A stretch of 64,000 bases of DNA from Hyphomicrobiales bacterium (GTDB taxonomy: Bacteria; Pseudomonadota; Alphaproteobacteria; Rhizobiales; Beijerinckiaceae). Positions within the stretch are counted from its first letter, which is position 1; every line of letters begins with the position of its first letter. Below, one piece after another: positions 38,303-63,699 of the stretch. The notes beneath the pieces were generated by a model, which did no database searches, was not told the origin of the DNA, and worked only from the letters and a program-made list of their open reading frames with translations. The position numbers and the translations under genes are program-made. The stretch is taken from NCBI GenBank assembly GCA_027489535.1, contig JAIXZO010000015.1, forward strand, positions 1 through 64,000. Reading direction: 5' to 3'.

Positions 38303-39682
38303 TCAGCCTGCGGCGGCGGGCAGAATGATCGTGACGGTAACGACGGAGTCGGGCGTCGCCTCGAAGGTGATTTCTCCGTCATGGGCACGCGCGATTTCGC
38401 GGGCGATGCTCAATCCAAGCCCGAGCCCGTCCACTTTCCGGCCGTGCGCTTGATCGCCCCGGTAAAACCGCTCGAACACGCGCGCGTTCGTGCCCGGCGG
38501 CAACCCGGCGGAAGGATTGGAGATCGCGATCCTTACGGTCCCGTTCAGCACTTCGGCCGCGATCGTGAGCCGATCGCCGACGTTGTAGCCGGCGGCGTTT
38601 TTGAGAATGTTGAAGATCATTTGCTGGAACAACGTGACGTCGCCGTTGCAGCGGATGCCGTCGGCGACGGCAATGGCGACATCGATGCCGTCGGCGAACA
38701 CTTCGGCATCCGCGGCCGCTTCACGCAGCAGACCGCTGACGTCGATGGGGTCCGACCCGATTTGCCATAGTCCGGAATCGATCGAAGAGAGGAGCAGGAG
38801 CCGGCTGAGGATGGATTCGAGGCGGTCGATTTCGTCGAGAACCTTCCCGATCCTGATTTGATGGGGCGATCCTTCCGGCGCGTCCGCCAGCGAACGCTCG
38901 ACATTCACCTTCATGATCGACAACGGCGTCATGATTTCATGCGCCGCATTGGCCGTGAACCGAGCAGCCTGCGCGTGACTGGCTTCCAGCCTTTTCAGGG
39001 TGGTGTTGAAGGCGCGGATGAAATCGGAGAACTCGGTATAAGTCTTTTCCTCCACCGAGTGCATGCCCGGCGACCCGATGCCGATCGCCGCGACCGTCGC
39101 GCGCAGCCGAACCAACGGCCTCAGCATGGTTTGGCTCAGAAGAAAGGCGAAGGTGACCGCCACGAGAATGCCGACCGGGATCGTGACCCACAGCGTCATG
39201 CGCCGAATGGTCCCGATGGTCTTCCACGTCCGTTCGAGCGAAGTCGGTGCCAAGACGACGTCGAAATTGCGCCCCGCATCGGTGATGCGGACGACGTAGG
39301 AACCGAATGCGGACGGATTCGACGCGTCGAAGATGGAGCGAACGGCCCCGATCTTCTCCGATTTCACGGATCGGTTTGCGTCGGACTCGTCGATCCGCAC
39401 CAGTCTGCGCCCTTGATCGGAGGTCGCGGAGGTCACGACGACATGCACGTCCGACGCATCGAGCCCCTGAACATGCTTCACCATGGCGTCGGTGACGGCG
39501 TTCGCATCCAATGCCGCTTCCGAGACCATCAGTTCATCGACAGCCTTTGTTGCATGTTCGACGAACAACGAACTCAACATGTGATGGGCGACGAAGATCG
39601 TCGTCAGGTTCATCACGATCCAGATGCATAAAAAACACGCGAAAGCGGCGAGTACGAGCCTGAACCTGAAGGAGTTCCTCAT
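38303..39682 (-). CDS. Membrane sensor histidine kinase (HAMP-HisKA-HATPase)
   Basis: A 459-residue sensor kinase. Transmembrane helices at about 10-32 and 163-185 flank a periplasmic sensor region of about 130 residues. They are followed by HAMP (about 187-240), a HisKA with the phospho-acceptor in ARFTANAAHEIMTPLSIM (about 252), and HATPase_c with N box NILKNAAGYN, then GLGLGLSIAREIARAHDG. The sensor region has no recognised ligand motif and lacks cysteines. Its start overlaps the response regulator stop by 4 bases. Cognate partner: the OmpR-type regulator just upstream. Confidence 0.93.
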   Translation of the reverse strand: MRNSFRFRLVLAAFACFLCIWIVMNLTTIFVAHHMLSSLFVEHATKAVDELMVSEAALDANAVTDAMVKHVQGLDASDVHVVVTSATSDQGRRLVRIDESDANRSVKSEKIGAVRSIFDASNPSAFGSYVVRITDAGRNFDVVLAPTSLERTWKTIGTIRRMTLWVTIPVGILVAVTFAFLLSQTMLRPLVRLRATVAAIGIGSPGMHSVEEKTYTEFSDFIRAFNTTLKRLEASHAQAARFTANAAHEIMTPLSIMKVNVERSLADAPEGSPHQIRIGKVLDEIDRLESILSRLLLLSSIDSGLWQIGSDPIDVSGLLREAAADAEVFADGIDVAIAVADGIRCNGDVTLFQQMIFNILKNAAGYNVGDRLTIAAEVLNGTVRIAISNPSAGLPPGTNARVFERFYRGDQAHGRKVDGLGLGLSIAREIARAHDGEITFEATPDSVVTVTIILPAAAG

Positions 39683-40401
39683 GCCGCCGACGTTTGTGCG
39701 GGCTGCAGGGGGGCGACGAATTTATACCCCACGCCCCTGACGTTTTGGATGGCCGCAGACATGTCCGTCGTGCTGTCCAAGGACGCGATTTTGCGACGAA
39801 TTCTTTGGACGCAAACCTCGACGATGTTCGTGGTCGGATCAAAATCGAACTTCCAAACAAAACCGATGATCTGCTTCTTCGTGAACACCCGGTTCGGCGA
39901 CCGCATGAGGTATTCGAGAAGCATGTATTCACGCTGGCTCAAGACGCATGACCTGCCCTTGAAGGTCAGCTCGCGGGTCTGCTTGTCGAGGGTCAGCCCC
40001 GCTTCCGCGAGCACCGACGGCTCGACGCCCAAAGATCTGAGATGCAGGGCCCTCGCGCGGACGACGAGTTCTTCCACGAAGAAGGGCTTGGACAGGTAAT
40101 CGTCGGCGCCGAGGTCGAAGGCCGAAAGGCGCGTGCCCAAGTCCGACCGAGCCGTCAGAACGATGACGGGAACCTTGCTTCCGCTTTCGCGGACCGCCCG
40201 AAGAACCGACTCTCCGTCGATGATCGGCACCATCAAATCAAGAATGACCAAGTCGAAGGTCTGCGCCTTCAGGGCATGCAGGCCGGAAAAACCGTCGACG
40301 ACGTGGTGAACGACCATCTCGCGCCGTGCAAACTCCTCGATGATGGAGCGTGCTATTCCATGCTCGTCTTCAATCAAGAGAACCTGAATTTCACCCGGCA
40401 T
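39679..40401 (-). CDS. OmpR/PhoB-family response regulator
   Basis: A 240-residue regulator with a receiver domain (1-120: IEDE, phospho-Asp in LVILDLMVPIIDG, Thr in VLTARSD, Lys in YLSKPF) and a winged-helix DNA-binding domain (about 130-230: LSQREYMLLEYLMRSPNRVF, then VEVCVQRIRRKI and VRGVGYKF). All catalytic positions are intact. It starts the minus-strand unit regulator - kinase - small exported proteins, so an obvious testable target is its own operon. The ATG is at 40401. Confidence 0.94.
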   Translation of the reverse strand: MPGEIQVLLIEDEHGIARSIIEEFARREMVVHHVVDGFSGLHALKAQTFDLVILDLMVPIIDGESVLRAVRESGSKVPVIVLTARSDLGTRLSAFDLGADDYLSKPFFVEELVVRARALHLRSLGVEPSVLAEAGLTLDKQTRELTFKGRSCVLSQREYMLLEYLMRSPNRVFTKKQIIGFVWKFDFDPTTNIVEVCVQRIRRKIASLDSTTDMSAAIQNVRGVGYKFVAPLQPAQTSAA

Positions 40402-40762: not shown

Positions 40763-40837
<75 letters not shown>

Positions 40838-41454: not shown

Positions 41455-42336
41455 ATGACCGCAGCGCCGCCCCTCGCCCCGTTCGAAGTTCTCGCGCCTG
41501 CACGGGCCCGCGGGCCGTTCGTCTTCAATTCCCCGCATTCGGGCGCGGCGTATCCGGCCGAGTTTCTCGCCGCGTCGCGCCTCGACCCGATGGCGTTGCG
41601 GCGCTCCGAGGACATGTTCGTGGACGATCTGTTCGCGGGCGTGGTGGAGCGCGGCGCGCCGCTGCTGCGCGCGCATTTCCCGCGCGCCTATCTCGACGTG
41701 AACCGCGAGCCCTACGAGCTCGACCCGCGCATGTTCGACGGCCGGCTGCCCGACCATTGCAACACGCGCTCGATGCGGGTGGCCGGCGGGCTGGGCACGA
41801 TCGCCCGCGTCGTCGGCGAGGGCCAGGAAATCTATGCCCGCCGTTTGAGCGTGGCGGAGGCGCTGGAGCGGATCGAGCGGCTCTACAGGCCCTATCACGC
41901 GGCGTTGCGGACCTTGCTGGAAGACACGCGCCGGCGTTTCGGGTTTGCGGTGCTGGTGGATTGCCATTCCATGCCGTCCGGCCCGCATCTGCAGGCGGAC
42001 GGCGGACGGGCGGACGTCGTGATCGGCGATCGCTACGGGACGAGCTGCGCCGGTTGCTTCACGGATGCCGTGGAGGACGGGCTGCGCGCGCTCGGCTATC
42101 GCGTCTCGCGCAACAAGCCTTATGCGGGCGGGTTCATCACCGAGCATTACGGCCACCCGCTCGCGGGGTTCCATGCGCTGCAGCTGGAGGTGAACCGCTC
42201 GCTCTATATGGACGAGCGCCGGCAGACGAAGTCTTCGGGCTTCGCGCGCGTGGCGGGCGACCTGATGGCGATGACGGACGATCTGCACGCGGCTGCGGCG
42301 GCCCATGCGCGCCTGCACCGGACGGCGGCGGAATAG
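41455..42336 (+). CDS. N-formylglutamate amidohydrolase family protein (copy 2)
   Basis: A 293-residue family member with FVFNSPHSGAAYP (about residues 22-34), the acidic motif FPRAYLDVNREPYELD, VLVDCHSMPSG with metal-binding residues, and the distal FHALQLEVNRSLYMDE. This copy conserves the family motifs more clearly than the one at 26996 and sits next to cpdR, as in many Rhizobiales; no hut genes accompany it. A zinc-dependent amidohydrolase activity is expected, but the physiological substrate is uncertain. The start ATG at 41455 lies 171 bases from the cpdR start. Confidence 0.9.
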   Translation: MTAAPPLAPFEVLAPARARGPFVFNSPHSGAAYPAEFLAASRLDPMALRRSEDMFVDDLFAGVVERGAPLLRAHFPRAYLDVNREPYELDPRMFDGRLPDHCNTRSMRVAGGLGTIARVVGEGQEIYARRLSVAEALERIERLYRPYHAALRTLLEDTRRRFGFAVLVDCHSMPSGPHLQADGGRADVVIGDRYGTSCAGCFTDAVEDGLRALGYRVSRNKPYAGGFITEHYGHPLAGFHALQLEVNRSLYMDERRQTKSSGFARVAGDLMAMTDDLHAAAAAHARLHRTAAE

Positions 42337-42390: not shown

Positions 42391-42419
42391 AAGAAAAAAG
42401 GCCGCCGTTGCCGGCGGCC
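42391..42419 (-). terminator. Terminator of the small RNA
   Basis: Stem GGCCGCCG/CGGCGGCC with a GCAA loop on the minus strand (42400-42419), followed by TTTTTTCTT. No minus-strand protein gene lies upstream of it, which first pointed to a non-coding transcript. Confidence 0.9.
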
Positions 42420-42482
42420 CAAGTCTAGGGAGGAAACGCCCAAGGAGGGCTGCAAGGCGTCGCGAAAACGCATCGCCTTACG
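42391..42482 (-). ncRNA. Anti-Shine-Dalgarno small RNA (cuckoo/alpha-r14-like)
   Basis: About 92 bases on the minus strand between a well-formed promoter and an intrinsic terminator. The RNA folds into a 5' hairpin (AAGGCG/CGCCUU with inner UGCG/CGCG), then two small hairpins. GCCC-UCCUU-GGGC (42438-42450 region) and GUUU-CCUCCCU-AGAC (42422-42436 region) expose CCUCC sequences complementary to a Shine-Dalgarno site. The terminator hairpin has a GCAA loop. Two anti-SD loops plus terminator is the architecture described for the alphaproteobacterial cuckoo / alpha-r14 RNAs (NfeR1, CcsR), which bind ribosome sites of many mRNAs. Family assignment is by pattern, from memory. Confidence 0.75.
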
Positions 42483-42488
42483 GGAGTG

Positions 42489-42517
42489 AATATGCATGTG
42501 CACTGCACAAAAGGCAA
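42489..42517 (-). promoter_or_regulatory. Promoter of the small RNA
   Basis: On the minus strand TTGCCT (42512-42517), a 17-base spacer and CATATT (42489-42494), the same -10 as before the BI-1 gene. The predicted start is near 42482. Confidence 0.65.
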
Positions 42518-42669
42518 GCCTCGCTGACGTATTTTTTGCAGCGCAACAAAAAACCGGATTTTCATCATGAACATCAGCGATTTACGTCGAACGTGAGCTA
42601 TGCATCAGCCGAATGGCTGAGATGTTTCACATGCTGAAAGGGGAATTGACCGCCCGCGGCGCCGGAATC

Positions 42670-42727: not shown

Positions 42728-43510
42728 ATGAGCGCCGTGGACTTCGCCTCCTTCGTGGACGACCTCGCGACCCGGTCCGGATCGGCCATCCTGCCCTTCT
42801 TCCGTACCTCCATCGCCTCCATCGACAAGTCGCGCGGCGGCGTGTTCGACCCCGTGACGGAAGCCGACCGGGCGGCGGAAGCGGTGATGCGGCAGCTGAT
42901 CTCGCGCACCTTCCCCACCCACGGCGTAATCGGCGAAGAGTTCGGCAACGAGCGCGAGGATGCGGAATTCGTCTGGGTGCTCGACCCCATCGACGGCACG
43001 CGCGCCTTCATCTCCGGCCTGCCGACCTGGGGCACGCTGATCGGCCTGACGCGCAACGGCCGGCCCTGCTACGGCATGATGCACCAGCCGTTCACCCGCG
43101 AACGCTTCTCCGGCGACGGGACGGGCGCGAAATGGACCGGCCCAACCGGCGAACGGACGCTGCGCACCCGCGCCTGCGCCGCCATCGCCGACGCCACCAT
43201 TTCCACGACCAGCCCTCGCCTGTTTCAAGGCGCGGATCTGGAGGCCTTCGAGCGGGTGGAGGCCGAGGCCAAGCTGACCCGCTTCGGCTATGACTGCTAC
43301 GCCTATTGCATGGTGGCTTCGGGACAGATGGACGCCGTGATCGAATCCGGCCTCAAGCCCTACGACATCGTCGCGCTGGTGCCGATCATCGAAGGCGCGG
43401 GCGGCATCGTCACGACATGGGACGGCGGATCGCCCGCCGACGGCGGCTCCATCGTAGCCTCCGGCGACAAGCGGCTGCACGAAAAGATCCTCGCCCGCCT
43501 GAAGGGCTGA
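42728..43510 (+). CDS. hisN: Histidinol-phosphatase (inositol monophosphatase family)
   Basis: A 260-residue Mg2+-dependent phosphatase of the IMPase fold. Metal-site motifs: DPVTEADRAAE (about 39-49), VIGEEFG, the signature VLDPIDGTRAFISGLP (about 83-98), and the C-terminal GLKPYDIVALVPIIEGAGG with the last ligand Asp. The GTRAFISGLPTWGTLIGL form is that of HisN-type histidinol-phosphatases, which make L-histidinol in histidine synthesis where no HisB-type phosphatase exists. Inositol or PAP phosphatase activity is the alternative. It is a single gene followed by a repeat element. Confidence 0.88.
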   Translation: MSAVDFASFVDDLATRSGSAILPFFRTSIASIDKSRGGVFDPVTEADRAAEAVMRQLISRTFPTHGVIGEEFGNEREDAEFVWVLDPIDGTRAFISGLPTWGTLIGLTRNGRPCYGMMHQPFTRERFSGDGTGAKWTGPTGERTLRTRACAAIADATISTTSPRLFQGADLEAFERVEAEAKLTRFGYDCYAYCMVASGQMDAVIESGLKPYDIVALVPIIEGAGGIVTTWDGGSPADGGSIVASGDKRLHEKILARLKG

Positions 43511-43623: not shown

Positions 43624-43709
43624 GTGCAGGCCGTACCGGCTGCACCACGACGGGTTCGGCCATGACGGCGGGCCCGCCGCATGTCGCTTCAACAGGAGGA
43701 TATGCCATG
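43624..43709 (+). promoter_or_regulatory. ROSE-type RNA thermometer in the hsp20 leader
   Basis: The leader folds into an upstream hairpin (GTGCAG...CTGCAC, 43624-43645) and a GC hairpin (GGCGGGCCCGCC). In the final hairpin UCGCU (43684-43688) pairs with AGGA (43694-43697) of the ribosome site AGGAGG across the loop UCAAC, with a bulged G. GCAU (43679-43682) then pairs with AUGC (43702-43705). The UYGCU:AGGA pairing with one bulged G is the diagnostic element of ROSE thermometers, which melt on heat shock and release the ribosome site. Confidence 0.8.
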
Positions 43710-44168
43710 CGTCACTACGATCTTTCCCCGCTGTACCGTTCCACGGTCGGCTTCGATCGCCTGTTCTCGATGCTCGACCAGTTCGGCGGGCCGGACGCCG
43801 GAGGCGGTTACCCGCCCTACAACATCGAGCGCACCGGCGAGAACGCCTATCGCGTGACCATCGCGGTGGCGGGCTTCAAGGACGACGAACTGTCCATCGA
43901 GGCCAAGGAAAACGCGCTCACCGTGCGCGGCGAACAGAAGAACGGCGAGGAGGGTCGAGGCGAGGTGCTCTATCAGGGCATCGCCGCGCGCGCCTTCGAG
44001 CGTCGGTTCCAGATCGCCGACTATGTGCAGGTGAAGGGCGCGAGCCTCGAAAACGGCCTGCTCCACATCGATCTCGTGCGCGAGGTCCCGGAGGCCAAGA
44101 AGCCCCGGTTGATCCCCATCGCCAACGGCGGCCGCCCGGCCGTAGAAGGGCGTGTGGAAGCGGCGTAA
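43707..44168 (+). CDS. Small heat-shock protein Hsp20 (IbpA-type)
   Basis: A 153-residue class A small heat-shock protein starting MRHYDLSPLYRSTVGFDRLF, with an alpha-crystallin domain at about 35-130 (YNIERTGENAYRVTIAVAGF, ENALTVRGEQK, ARAFERRFQIADYV, ENGLLHIDL). The C-terminal IxI-type anchor is LIPI. It forms oligomers that hold unfolding proteins for Hsp70/ClpB. The start ATG at 43707 has AGGAGG 7 bases upstream; an open frame running in from 43662 is not used. Expression is predicted to be under RpoH and a ROSE thermometer. Confidence 0.96.
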   Translation: MRHYDLSPLYRSTVGFDRLFSMLDQFGGPDAGGGYPPYNIERTGENAYRVTIAVAGFKDDELSIEAKENALTVRGEQKNGEEGRGEVLYQGIAARAFERRFQIADYVQVKGASLENGLLHIDLVREVPEAKKPRLIPIANGGRPAVEGRVEAA

Positions 44169-62267: not shown

Positions 62268-63599
62268 TCAGGAACCCTTCTGGCAGGGTTCGCTGCGTGC
62301 GGGCCAGGTGTTCGCGGCCGCATAGTCCTTGGCGGCGGACTCGAGCAGCGGGCGCACCTTGTCCTTCATCGGCTCCATCCAGTCGGAGCCTTGGGTCCAC
62401 TTGGTCCCGTCCCACTGGGCGACATAGACCTTGTTGTGGCCGCTGTGGTCGTCGCAGGACAGCTTCACGGGGGCGGCGAAGCCCTTCATGCCCATTTCGC
62501 CGAGGCGCGCCTCGGTGACGTCGAGCGCTTCGAGACCGCGACGGACGTCCTCGGCATTGACCACCTTCTTGCCGGTGATCTTCTGCGCGGTGCGGATCGC
62601 TTCGGCGATCAGCATCGAGTTGTAGACGCCGCGATTGTAGAGGTTCTCGCCGACCTTATCCTTCGGCACCTTCGAGAAGCCCTTGTCGACGACATGCTTC
62701 TGGATGTCCTGGATGACCGGGAAATTCGAGCCGGAGGCGTGGAAGTTGAGCGACTTGTAGCCCTTGGCCTGATCGCCGCCCGCGCGGGCGTCGTCGTCGC
62801 CGCCGGCCCACCAGACGCCGACGAGCTTTTCCATCGGGTAGTTGTTCTTGGCGGCTTCCTTCACCGCCGTCGGGTTCATCGCGCCCCAGCCCTGATTGTA
62901 GATCCAATCCGGACGGTCACGACGGATGTTCAGCCATACCGAACCTTGGTTCTGCATGTCGGCCGCGGCGACGGGATAGAGCTTTAGCTCGAAGCCGAAT
63001 TCCTTGGCGAGATTTTCGAGGACCGCGATGGGCTCCTTGCCGAACGGCGCGTCCAGATGGATGAGGCCGATCTTCTTGCCCTTCAGCTTGTCGAGCCCGC
63101 CTTCCTTCTCGGCGACGTGCTTGATGAACACCGAAGCGCCGTCCCAATAGGTGACCGGCGGGTTGTAGATCCACGGGAAGGTGTTGCCGACCGCGGCGGC
63201 AGAGAGGCCGTAAGCCATCGACAGGACCGGGATCTTGTCGGCCGAGGCCTTCGGAATGAGCTGAAGGGTGATGCCCGTGGAATACGGGTTGTAGATCACC
63301 GCGCCCTTGCCCTTGGTGGACTCGTAGCACTCGACGCCCTTCTTGGTGTCGTAGCCCGTCTCGCATTCCTCGACGAGAAGCTTGACGCCGCCGATGCCGC
63401 CGTCGCGCTCGTTGAGCATGCGCAGATAATCCGCCATGCCGTCCGCGATCGGGATGCCCGAACCGGCGAAGGAGCCGGTGCGGTAGGTCAGCAGCGGCAC
63501 GTAGATCTGCTCCTGCGCCTGAGCGGGGACCACCGCCGCCGTCGAGACGCCCGTAAGCACGGCCATCGCCGTGCCGAGGGCCAGTTTGCGAATGTTCAT
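62268..63599 (-). CDS. Branched-chain-type ABC transporter substrate-binding protein
   Basis: A 443-residue periplasmic binding protein (type I fold, LivK/Leu-Ile-Val-binding superfamily). A signal peptide (1-29, ending PAQAQ) is followed by the two-lobed domain: VPLLTYRTGSFAGSGIPI, MLNERDGGIGGVKLLVEECET and GVWWAGGDDDARAGG. It is longer than classical LivK (about 370), like the aromatic-acid and urea-type binding proteins of alphaproteobacteria. The ATG at 63599 has GGGAGGAAG 5-6 bases upstream. The ligand is unknown; the co-operonic CoA ligase hints at a carboxylate. Confidence 0.92.
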   Translation of the reverse strand: MNIRKLALGTAMAVLTGVSTAAVVPAQAQEQIYVPLLTYRTGSFAGSGIPIADGMADYLRMLNERDGGIGGVKLLVEECETGYDTKKGVECYESTKGKGAVIYNPYSTGITLQLIPKASADKIPVLSMAYGLSAAAVGNTFPWIYNPPVTYWDGASVFIKHVAEKEGGLDKLKGKKIGLIHLDAPFGKEPIAVLENLAKEFGFELKLYPVAAADMQNQGSVWLNIRRDRPDWIYNQGWGAMNPTAVKEAAKNNYPMEKLVGVWWAGGDDDARAGGDQAKGYKSLNFHASGSNFPVIQDIQKHVVDKGFSKVPKDKVGENLYNRGVYNSMLIAEAIRTAQKITGKKVVNAEDVRRGLEALDVTEARLGEMGMKGFAAPVKLSCDDHSGHNKVYVAQWDGTKWTQGSDWMEPMKDKVRPLLESAAKDYAAANTWPARSEPCQKGS

Positions 63600-63699
63600 C
63601 GGTCTTCCTCCCTGTGTACGGCCCGCCGACATTGTTTCGTCGGTCGGACCGCCGTGCTGGCCGCGGTACTCCCGCGGGTTCGTTACTCCGGTCGTCCCC

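Follow-up and report, generated by a model that had tools for sequence, protein, structure and literature searches.

Between two protein-coding genes in the analyzed DNA, a 64-kb stretch of a Hyphomicrobiales genome referred to here as the window, lies a small RNA locus on the minus strand. Its neighbours are an N-formylglutamate amidohydrolase gene (PF05013) and a suhB/hisN-like gene (PF00459), which agrees with the initial annotation's placement of the site between an amidohydrolase gene and hisN. The features discussed below are as follows.

41455..42336, plus strand: N-formylglutamate amidohydrolase gene, neighbour (Pfam PF05013)
42391..42420, minus strand: intrinsic terminator, loop GCAA; stem 42420-42400, U tract 42399-42391 (terminator scan and fold)
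42391..42481, minus strand: small RNA of the MmgR/alpha-r8 family, about 91 nt long with a start predicted at 42482-42480 (RF00519 match)
42427..42436, minus strand: 10-mer core UUUCCUCCCU, the family seed, carrying the second anti-Shine-Dalgarno motif and predicted to be unpaired (window fold)
42438..42450, minus strand: small hairpin GCCC-UCCUU-GGGC, whose loop holds the first anti-Shine-Dalgarno motif (window fold and Rfam structure line)
42452..42481, minus strand: 5' hairpin GUAAGGCG...CGCCUUGC, loop UUUU (fold; mostly outside the Rfam model)
42490..42495, minus strand: predicted -10 GCATAT, 17 bases past the -35 (sequence)
42493..42513, minus strand: spacer PhaR-like box CTTTTGTGCAGTGCACATGCA between -35 and -10, core TGCAGTGCA at 42507-42499 (19/21 consensus match)
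42513..42518, minus strand: predicted -35 CTTGCC (sequence; many of the relatives shown have CTTG at a similar position)
42531..42551, minus strand: upstream PhaR-like box TTTTGTTGCGCTGCAAAAAAT, core TGCGCTGCA at 42545-42537 (21/21 consensus match)
42728..43510, plus strand: inositol monophosphatase family gene, suhB/hisN-like, neighbour (Pfam PF00459)
63597..63612, minus strand: possible target, GGGAGGAA preceding the ATG of a gene for a periplasmic binding protein (PF13458, 63599-62268); putative pairing by core complementarity

Farther out on one side are a histidine kinase and response regulator pair (38303-40401, minus strand) and a tRNA-Val (GAC) gene (40763-40837, minus strand), while a gene for an Hsp20 small heat-shock protein (43662-44168) directly follows the phosphatase gene.

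The small RNA gene is real and of a known kind, namely a copy of alpha-r8 (MmgR, RF00519), a family that is well described. A covariance search matched RF00519 (suhB/MmgR, alpha-r8), whose title in Rfam is "Makes More Granules Regulator" (suhB), at 42457-42384 of the minus strand with 70.6 bits against a cut-off (gathering score) of 41 (E 1.4e-12, model positions 1-77 of 77). Together with conservation in relatives, this match places the locus above chance. The RNA had been described as unannotated, which holds just for a reader without Rfam. A search of the whole source genome (3.42 Mb, 22 contigs, 95.67% complete) found one copy over the cut-off, that of the window. As for paralogues, 22 weaker RF00519 matches in the same genome, the best of 22.6 bits, fell below the cut-off and were treated as chance. 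Of 60 relatives, 49 carry at least one over-cut-off copy and 55 give a match when the threshold is E <= 0.001; a single relative genome has 14 matches at the latter threshold. A permissive Rfam scan of the locus returned 12 rows up to E 5, with a runner-up of 24.8 bits and all rows other than RF00519 far under their own cut-offs. Since that scan reports the best clan member alone and RF00519 belongs to a clan, hidden clan-mates are possible. This applies to alpha-r15/AbcR, partially homologous to RF00519 according to PMC7143759: the scan gave no row for it but would mask any clan-mate of RF00519.

Conservation was assessed in two sets of related loci. By hand count there are 92 over-cut-off copies, the window's included, of which 70 were used (30 loci and 40 stretches). 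Copies were located by covariance score and read by a 17-base core pattern with at most four substitutions, giving 68 copies; two others failed. L207 failed the core pattern with the 10-mer present and changes beside it. The other was L208, an over-cut-off match (RF00519, 58.4 bits) in which the family core did not appear at the stated place. For one copy (L189) the DNA upstream was too short, so the promoter, 5'-hairpin and pairing counts exclude it and cover 67 copies. The second set comprises at least 120 loci holding 122 copies; these loci were picked by the exact core, and the set is therefore uninformative on core conservation. Because the copies are related to one another, the counts are not independent. 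At several loci (L039, L146, L154 and L157) there are two or three alpha-r8 copies, spaced by a few hundred bases.

In the covariance-located set, 65 of the 68 copies read have the core UUUCCUCCCU without any change, and all 68 retain TTCCTCCC. The first loop is looser, being UCCUU in 45, UUCUU in 11 and something else in 11 of 67 copies. The initial annotation had named freely drifting loop sequences as a refutation, a check that the core withstands. Its broader proposal, an intergenic small RNA with an anti-Shine-Dalgarno sequence, conserved in relatives and likely acting on ribosome sites, was borne out.

Gene order is shared as well. The relatives' 3-kb loci (n=29) include the amidohydrolase in 20 cases, the phosphatase in 16 and both in 15, and among the at least 120 core-chosen loci listed the corresponding numbers are 64, 55 and 53; as the locus pieces were cut arbitrarily, all of these are lower bounds. 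The locus is a usual place of the family, beside the amidohydrolase gene and on the strand opposite the suhB-like gene. Adjacency of alpha-r8 to an amidohydrolase gene has been described (PMC12559287), and the suhB motif has been reported on the opposite strand next to suhB, and not tied to specific neighbours (PMC1273637). In Sinorhizobium meliloti, RF00519 matches occur at several loci (PMC2873474), including SmelC689, which is MmgR (PMC7143759).

The architecture of the predicted transcript follows in part what had been claimed from the letters. Both the minus-strand terminator, with its stem at 42420-42400 and U tract at 42399-42391, and a promoter-like sequence with 17-base spacing (CTTGCC at 42518-42513, N17, GCATAT at 42495-42490) are seen, and the interval between them is about 91-93 bases where about 92 had been given. 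The predicted fold of 93 bases has an energy of -47.7 kcal/mol (z -4.97) that none of 200 shuffles equalled, and the terminator by itself is unremarkable (1 found vs 1.2 expected in shuffles). The putative start was deduced from promoter spacing and from the distance of 13 between box and start in S. meliloti. As to the hairpins, the 5' hairpin (42481-42452) and the UCCUU hairpin (42450-42438) stand, but the second mini-hairpin, GUUU-CCUCCCU-AGAC, does not. Neither the window's predicted fold nor the Rfam structure line contains it, and when 67 family copies were folded to minimum energy it formed in 0, its innermost pair being T-T in 6 of the 67. Instead, the second motif belongs to the 10-mer UUUCCUCCCU, named as the single-stranded core of the alpha-r8 family that follows a weak hairpin (PMC12559287). 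All ten core bases were free in just 9 of 67 copies when fixed 105-base slices were folded to minimum energy, so that the description of the core as unpaired rests on the window fold, Rfam and published work.

The 5' hairpin had been considered, together with the separated motifs, a possible variant of the family. Both turn out to be ordinary for it, and the variant reading of the hairpin is rejected because relatives have one with other letters. The RF00519 alignment begins within the 3' arm of this hairpin, and the Rfam model appears to omit most of it. In the 32 bases 5' of the small hairpin, the 67 copies, including the window's, gave a median z of -2.6, with z < -1.5 in 51 and all 30 shuffles beaten in 37; the same test on the 122 copies from core-chosen loci gave z < -1.5 in 99 and beat all shuffles in 73. 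Hairpin halves were then swapped among copies with the GCCC arm (61 of 67 and 102 of 122). Foreign 3' halves shifted the median of the first group from -13.4 to -8.2 kcal/mol, the native pairing being better in 1059 of 1220 trials, and in the second group native pairing was better in 1905 of 2040. Native halves pair better than swapped ones, and thus the 5' stem has been kept while its letters change. The 5' hairpin is a feature of the family; MmgR is itself described with three stem-loops (PMC7143759).

The promoter-like pair was compared with the alphaproteobacterial consensus CTTGAC-N17-CTATAT; an E. coli-type promoter scan at the locus found 0. The predicted promoter carries two boxes resembling the S. 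meliloti PhaR consensus WNWD2NYGCRNYGCRNH2WNW, against which they were scored (PMC12542648). The upstream box is the only 21/21 match in the 64-kb window. The spacer box scores 19/21, and 40 places in the window reach at least 19; likewise, the 9-mer box core occurs 106 times in the window. With both the 9-mer and a score of 19/21 so common, the argument for the boxes rests on their location, on the 21/21 neighbour and on recurrence in relatives. By sequence position, the spacer box sits where the S. meliloti mmgR promoter has its -35/-10 dyad. Earlier work on that promoter described a conserved dyad between -35 and -10 and control by AniA/PhaR and NtrC (PMC8401924). In fact, mmgR is among the S. 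meliloti PhaR sites, purified PhaR shifts its promoter fragment, and excluding or mutating palindromes abolished PhaR shifts of S. meliloti promoter fragments (PMC12542648).

Within the 90 bases upstream, 58 of 67 copies located by covariance have at least one PhaR-like 9-mer, where shuffling leads one to expect 11.05, and so do 87 of 122 copies in core-chosen loci, against 18.4 from shuffles; of 10804 background windows of the same loci, 953 had a 9-mer. Two or more 9-mers occur in 76 of 189 copies, most commonly 21 bp apart (39 times) and next most often 20 bp apart (10). The window and two same-genus relatives have a spacing of 38 bp. Searches of the source genome with stricter box patterns gave 6 places vs 5 for a reversed control with one pattern, hence no enrichment, and 5 vs 0 for the control with a second. 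No published account of paired boxes across Hyphomicrobiales was found, which is a weak negative at incomplete literature coverage. The family, the S. meliloti dyad and control by AniA/PhaR and NtrC are already known; the two PhaR-like boxes flanking the -35 are modestly new.

The genes for a polyhydroxybutyrate (PHB) circuit are present in the source genome, which encodes PhaR (PF05233; gene around C3:20244-20363), the PHB synthase PhaC (PF07167) and Hfq (PF17209), along with the phasin domain PF09361 at four loci. Two of these four phasin loci (L159 and L162) have two boxes just upstream, with scores of 20 and 21 in each. In L159 the boxes flank CTTGAC, the same layout as in the window's promoter, and in L162 they come after CTTGAC and flank CATTAT, like many relatives' alpha-r8 promoters. 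A layout with boxes flanking the -35 has been described for S. meliloti phaP1 and phaP2 (PMC12542648). Removal of the MmgR core in S. meliloti raises PHB and phasin proteins (PMC8401924), and the authors of PMC12559287 knew of no direct MmgR pairing. Here, GGGAGGAA is absent from the phasin starts listed and no direct phasin pairing was found in them.

Another class of candidate targets came from core complementarity. The Caulobacter alpha-r8 RNA SisA represses many mRNAs, likely via the core (PMC12559287). The pattern GGGAGGAAN{2,9}ATG occurs at 16 places in the source genome, vs 1 for a reversed control. Pfam was run on 9 of the 16 seed-site proteins, and 7 of these, among them the one in the window (63599-62268), are periplasmic substrate-binding proteins; the remaining 7 of the 16, which are short or looked internal or off-frame, were left out. 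With two other strong Shine-Dalgarno patterns, substrate-binding proteins numbered 2 of 13 and 0 of 12 (by eye, without Pfam). The excess, computed post hoc, has a one-sided Fisher p of 0.011 vs the pooled controls and 0.11 vs the nearer control, and substrate-binding genes may simply favour that ribosome site. Whole-RNA duplex energies were uninformative, the listed start regions giving -25 to -65.3 kcal/mol with or without the seed. We regard the paired boxes, like the uptake targets, as leads.

We hold it highly probable that the locus encodes an alpha-r8 small RNA that likely blocks Shine-Dalgarno sites with Hfq, and whose promoter is likely repressed by PhaR via the two boxes. The predicted-unpaired core UUUCCUCCCU, and perhaps also the UCCUU loop, would cover the Shine-Dalgarno sites of target mRNAs, and Hfq would bind the RNA and assist the pairing. 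The PHB-sensing PhaR would bind the two boxes and thereby repress the small RNA promoter. Judging from S. meliloti and Caulobacter, phasin expression and nutrient-uptake mRNAs would be among its targets, and the cell would likely use the RNA to tune carbon storage and uptake.

Of course, other explanations of the locus have to be weighed. The initial annotation had filed it under alpha-r14/cuckoo, as an RNA of the NfeR1, cuckoo or CcsR-like kind with an anti-Shine-Dalgarno motif in each hairpin loop. Two CU-rich motifs and a terminator are indeed present and the mode of action is likely similar, but the locus matches RF00519 with 70.6 bits, whereas RF02344 (ar14) had 0 matches in the source genome at E <= 0.001, in a search that matched 0 of 14 control genomes either. 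Likewise, ar14 was absent at E <= 5 from the permissive locus scan, which keeps the best of a clan alone. Moreover, alpha-r14 is defined by three hairpins with the anti-Shine-Dalgarno motif unpaired in all loops (PMC7143759), and the loops here are UUUU, UCCUU and GCAA, the motif not being in all three. Membership in alpha-r14 is extremely improbable, and the filing is corrected to alpha-r8; a generic reading of "two anti-Shine-Dalgarno loops" needs a covariance test.

It is also conceivable that the locus belongs to the family by sequence and is a silent or decayed copy, in which case the promoter and boxes would be meaningless. The empty E. coli-type promoter scan is in line with such a copy, and expression of the RNA is putative; however, the two same-genus relatives (L016 and L029) retain both boxes along with the -35/-10 pair, the core and the terminator, and the window's copy is the sole one over the cut-off in its genome, so we judge silence very unlikely. 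A third reading is cis action on the amidohydrolase or phosphatase gene, by a leader or antisense element. The site between both genes would suit it, and it was upstream of suhB that the family first came to notice (PMC1273637). Yet the RNA lies on the opposite strand, with 54 bases between the end of its terminator and the stop codon of the amidohydrolase gene (42336), and 9 of 29 relatives' loci showed no amidohydrolase within 1.5 kb; the authors of PMC1273637 eventually interpreted the suhB motif as a non-coding RNA encoded on the opposite strand. Action in cis is accordingly highly improbable.

Returning to the PhaR-controlled alpha-r8 RNA, a wider scheme is possible though doubtful. Alpha-r8 RNAs of Hyphomicrobiales would be hard-wired to the PHB sensor through PhaR boxes, often paired about 21 bp (two helical turns) apart. 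Granules would draw PhaR away, the RNA would come on and the mRNAs of substrate-binding proteins would be shut, and in this manner stored carbon would lower uptake. In the genus considered here, the pair 38 bp apart would flank the -35 as in a phasin promoter, placing the RNA and a phasin gene under one switch. Should the PhaR boxes be functional, the link from PHB to MmgR known in S. meliloti would hold for a large part of the order, with the promoters supplying a simple rule that can be tested.

Known systems share some features with the locus and differ in others. The RNA resembles S. meliloti MmgR in family, core, terminator, a -35/-10 dyad and a PhaR/AniA-type box (PMC7143759, PMC8401924, PMC12542648). 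It differs in its predicted length of about 91 nt, vs 77 nt for MmgR, in belonging to another Hyphomicrobiales lineage, and in having a second, upstream PhaR-like box where mmgR has one box listed in the table of PMC12542648. With Caulobacter crescentus SisA-D it shares the core UUUCCUCCCU and a terminator, and SisA likewise lies beside an N-formylglutamate amidohydrolase gene; in contrast to the four copies and the sponge RNA CrfA found there, a single over-cut-off copy occurs here (PMC12559287). No shared upstream motif is reported for sisA-D in the same paper, so a PhaR-type box is not required of the family. Like alpha-r14/NfeR1, the RNA has anti-Shine-Dalgarno motifs, a terminator and a likely similar mode of action, but the covariance match was not found here and the motif is not in all loops. 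Finally, the suhB element of Agrobacterium tumefaciens described in 2005 (PMC1273637) shares the Rfam family, the strand opposite suhB, a promoter and a terminator; besides the terminator, one short conserved 5' helix was named for it, and here the outer 5' hairpin is supported too.
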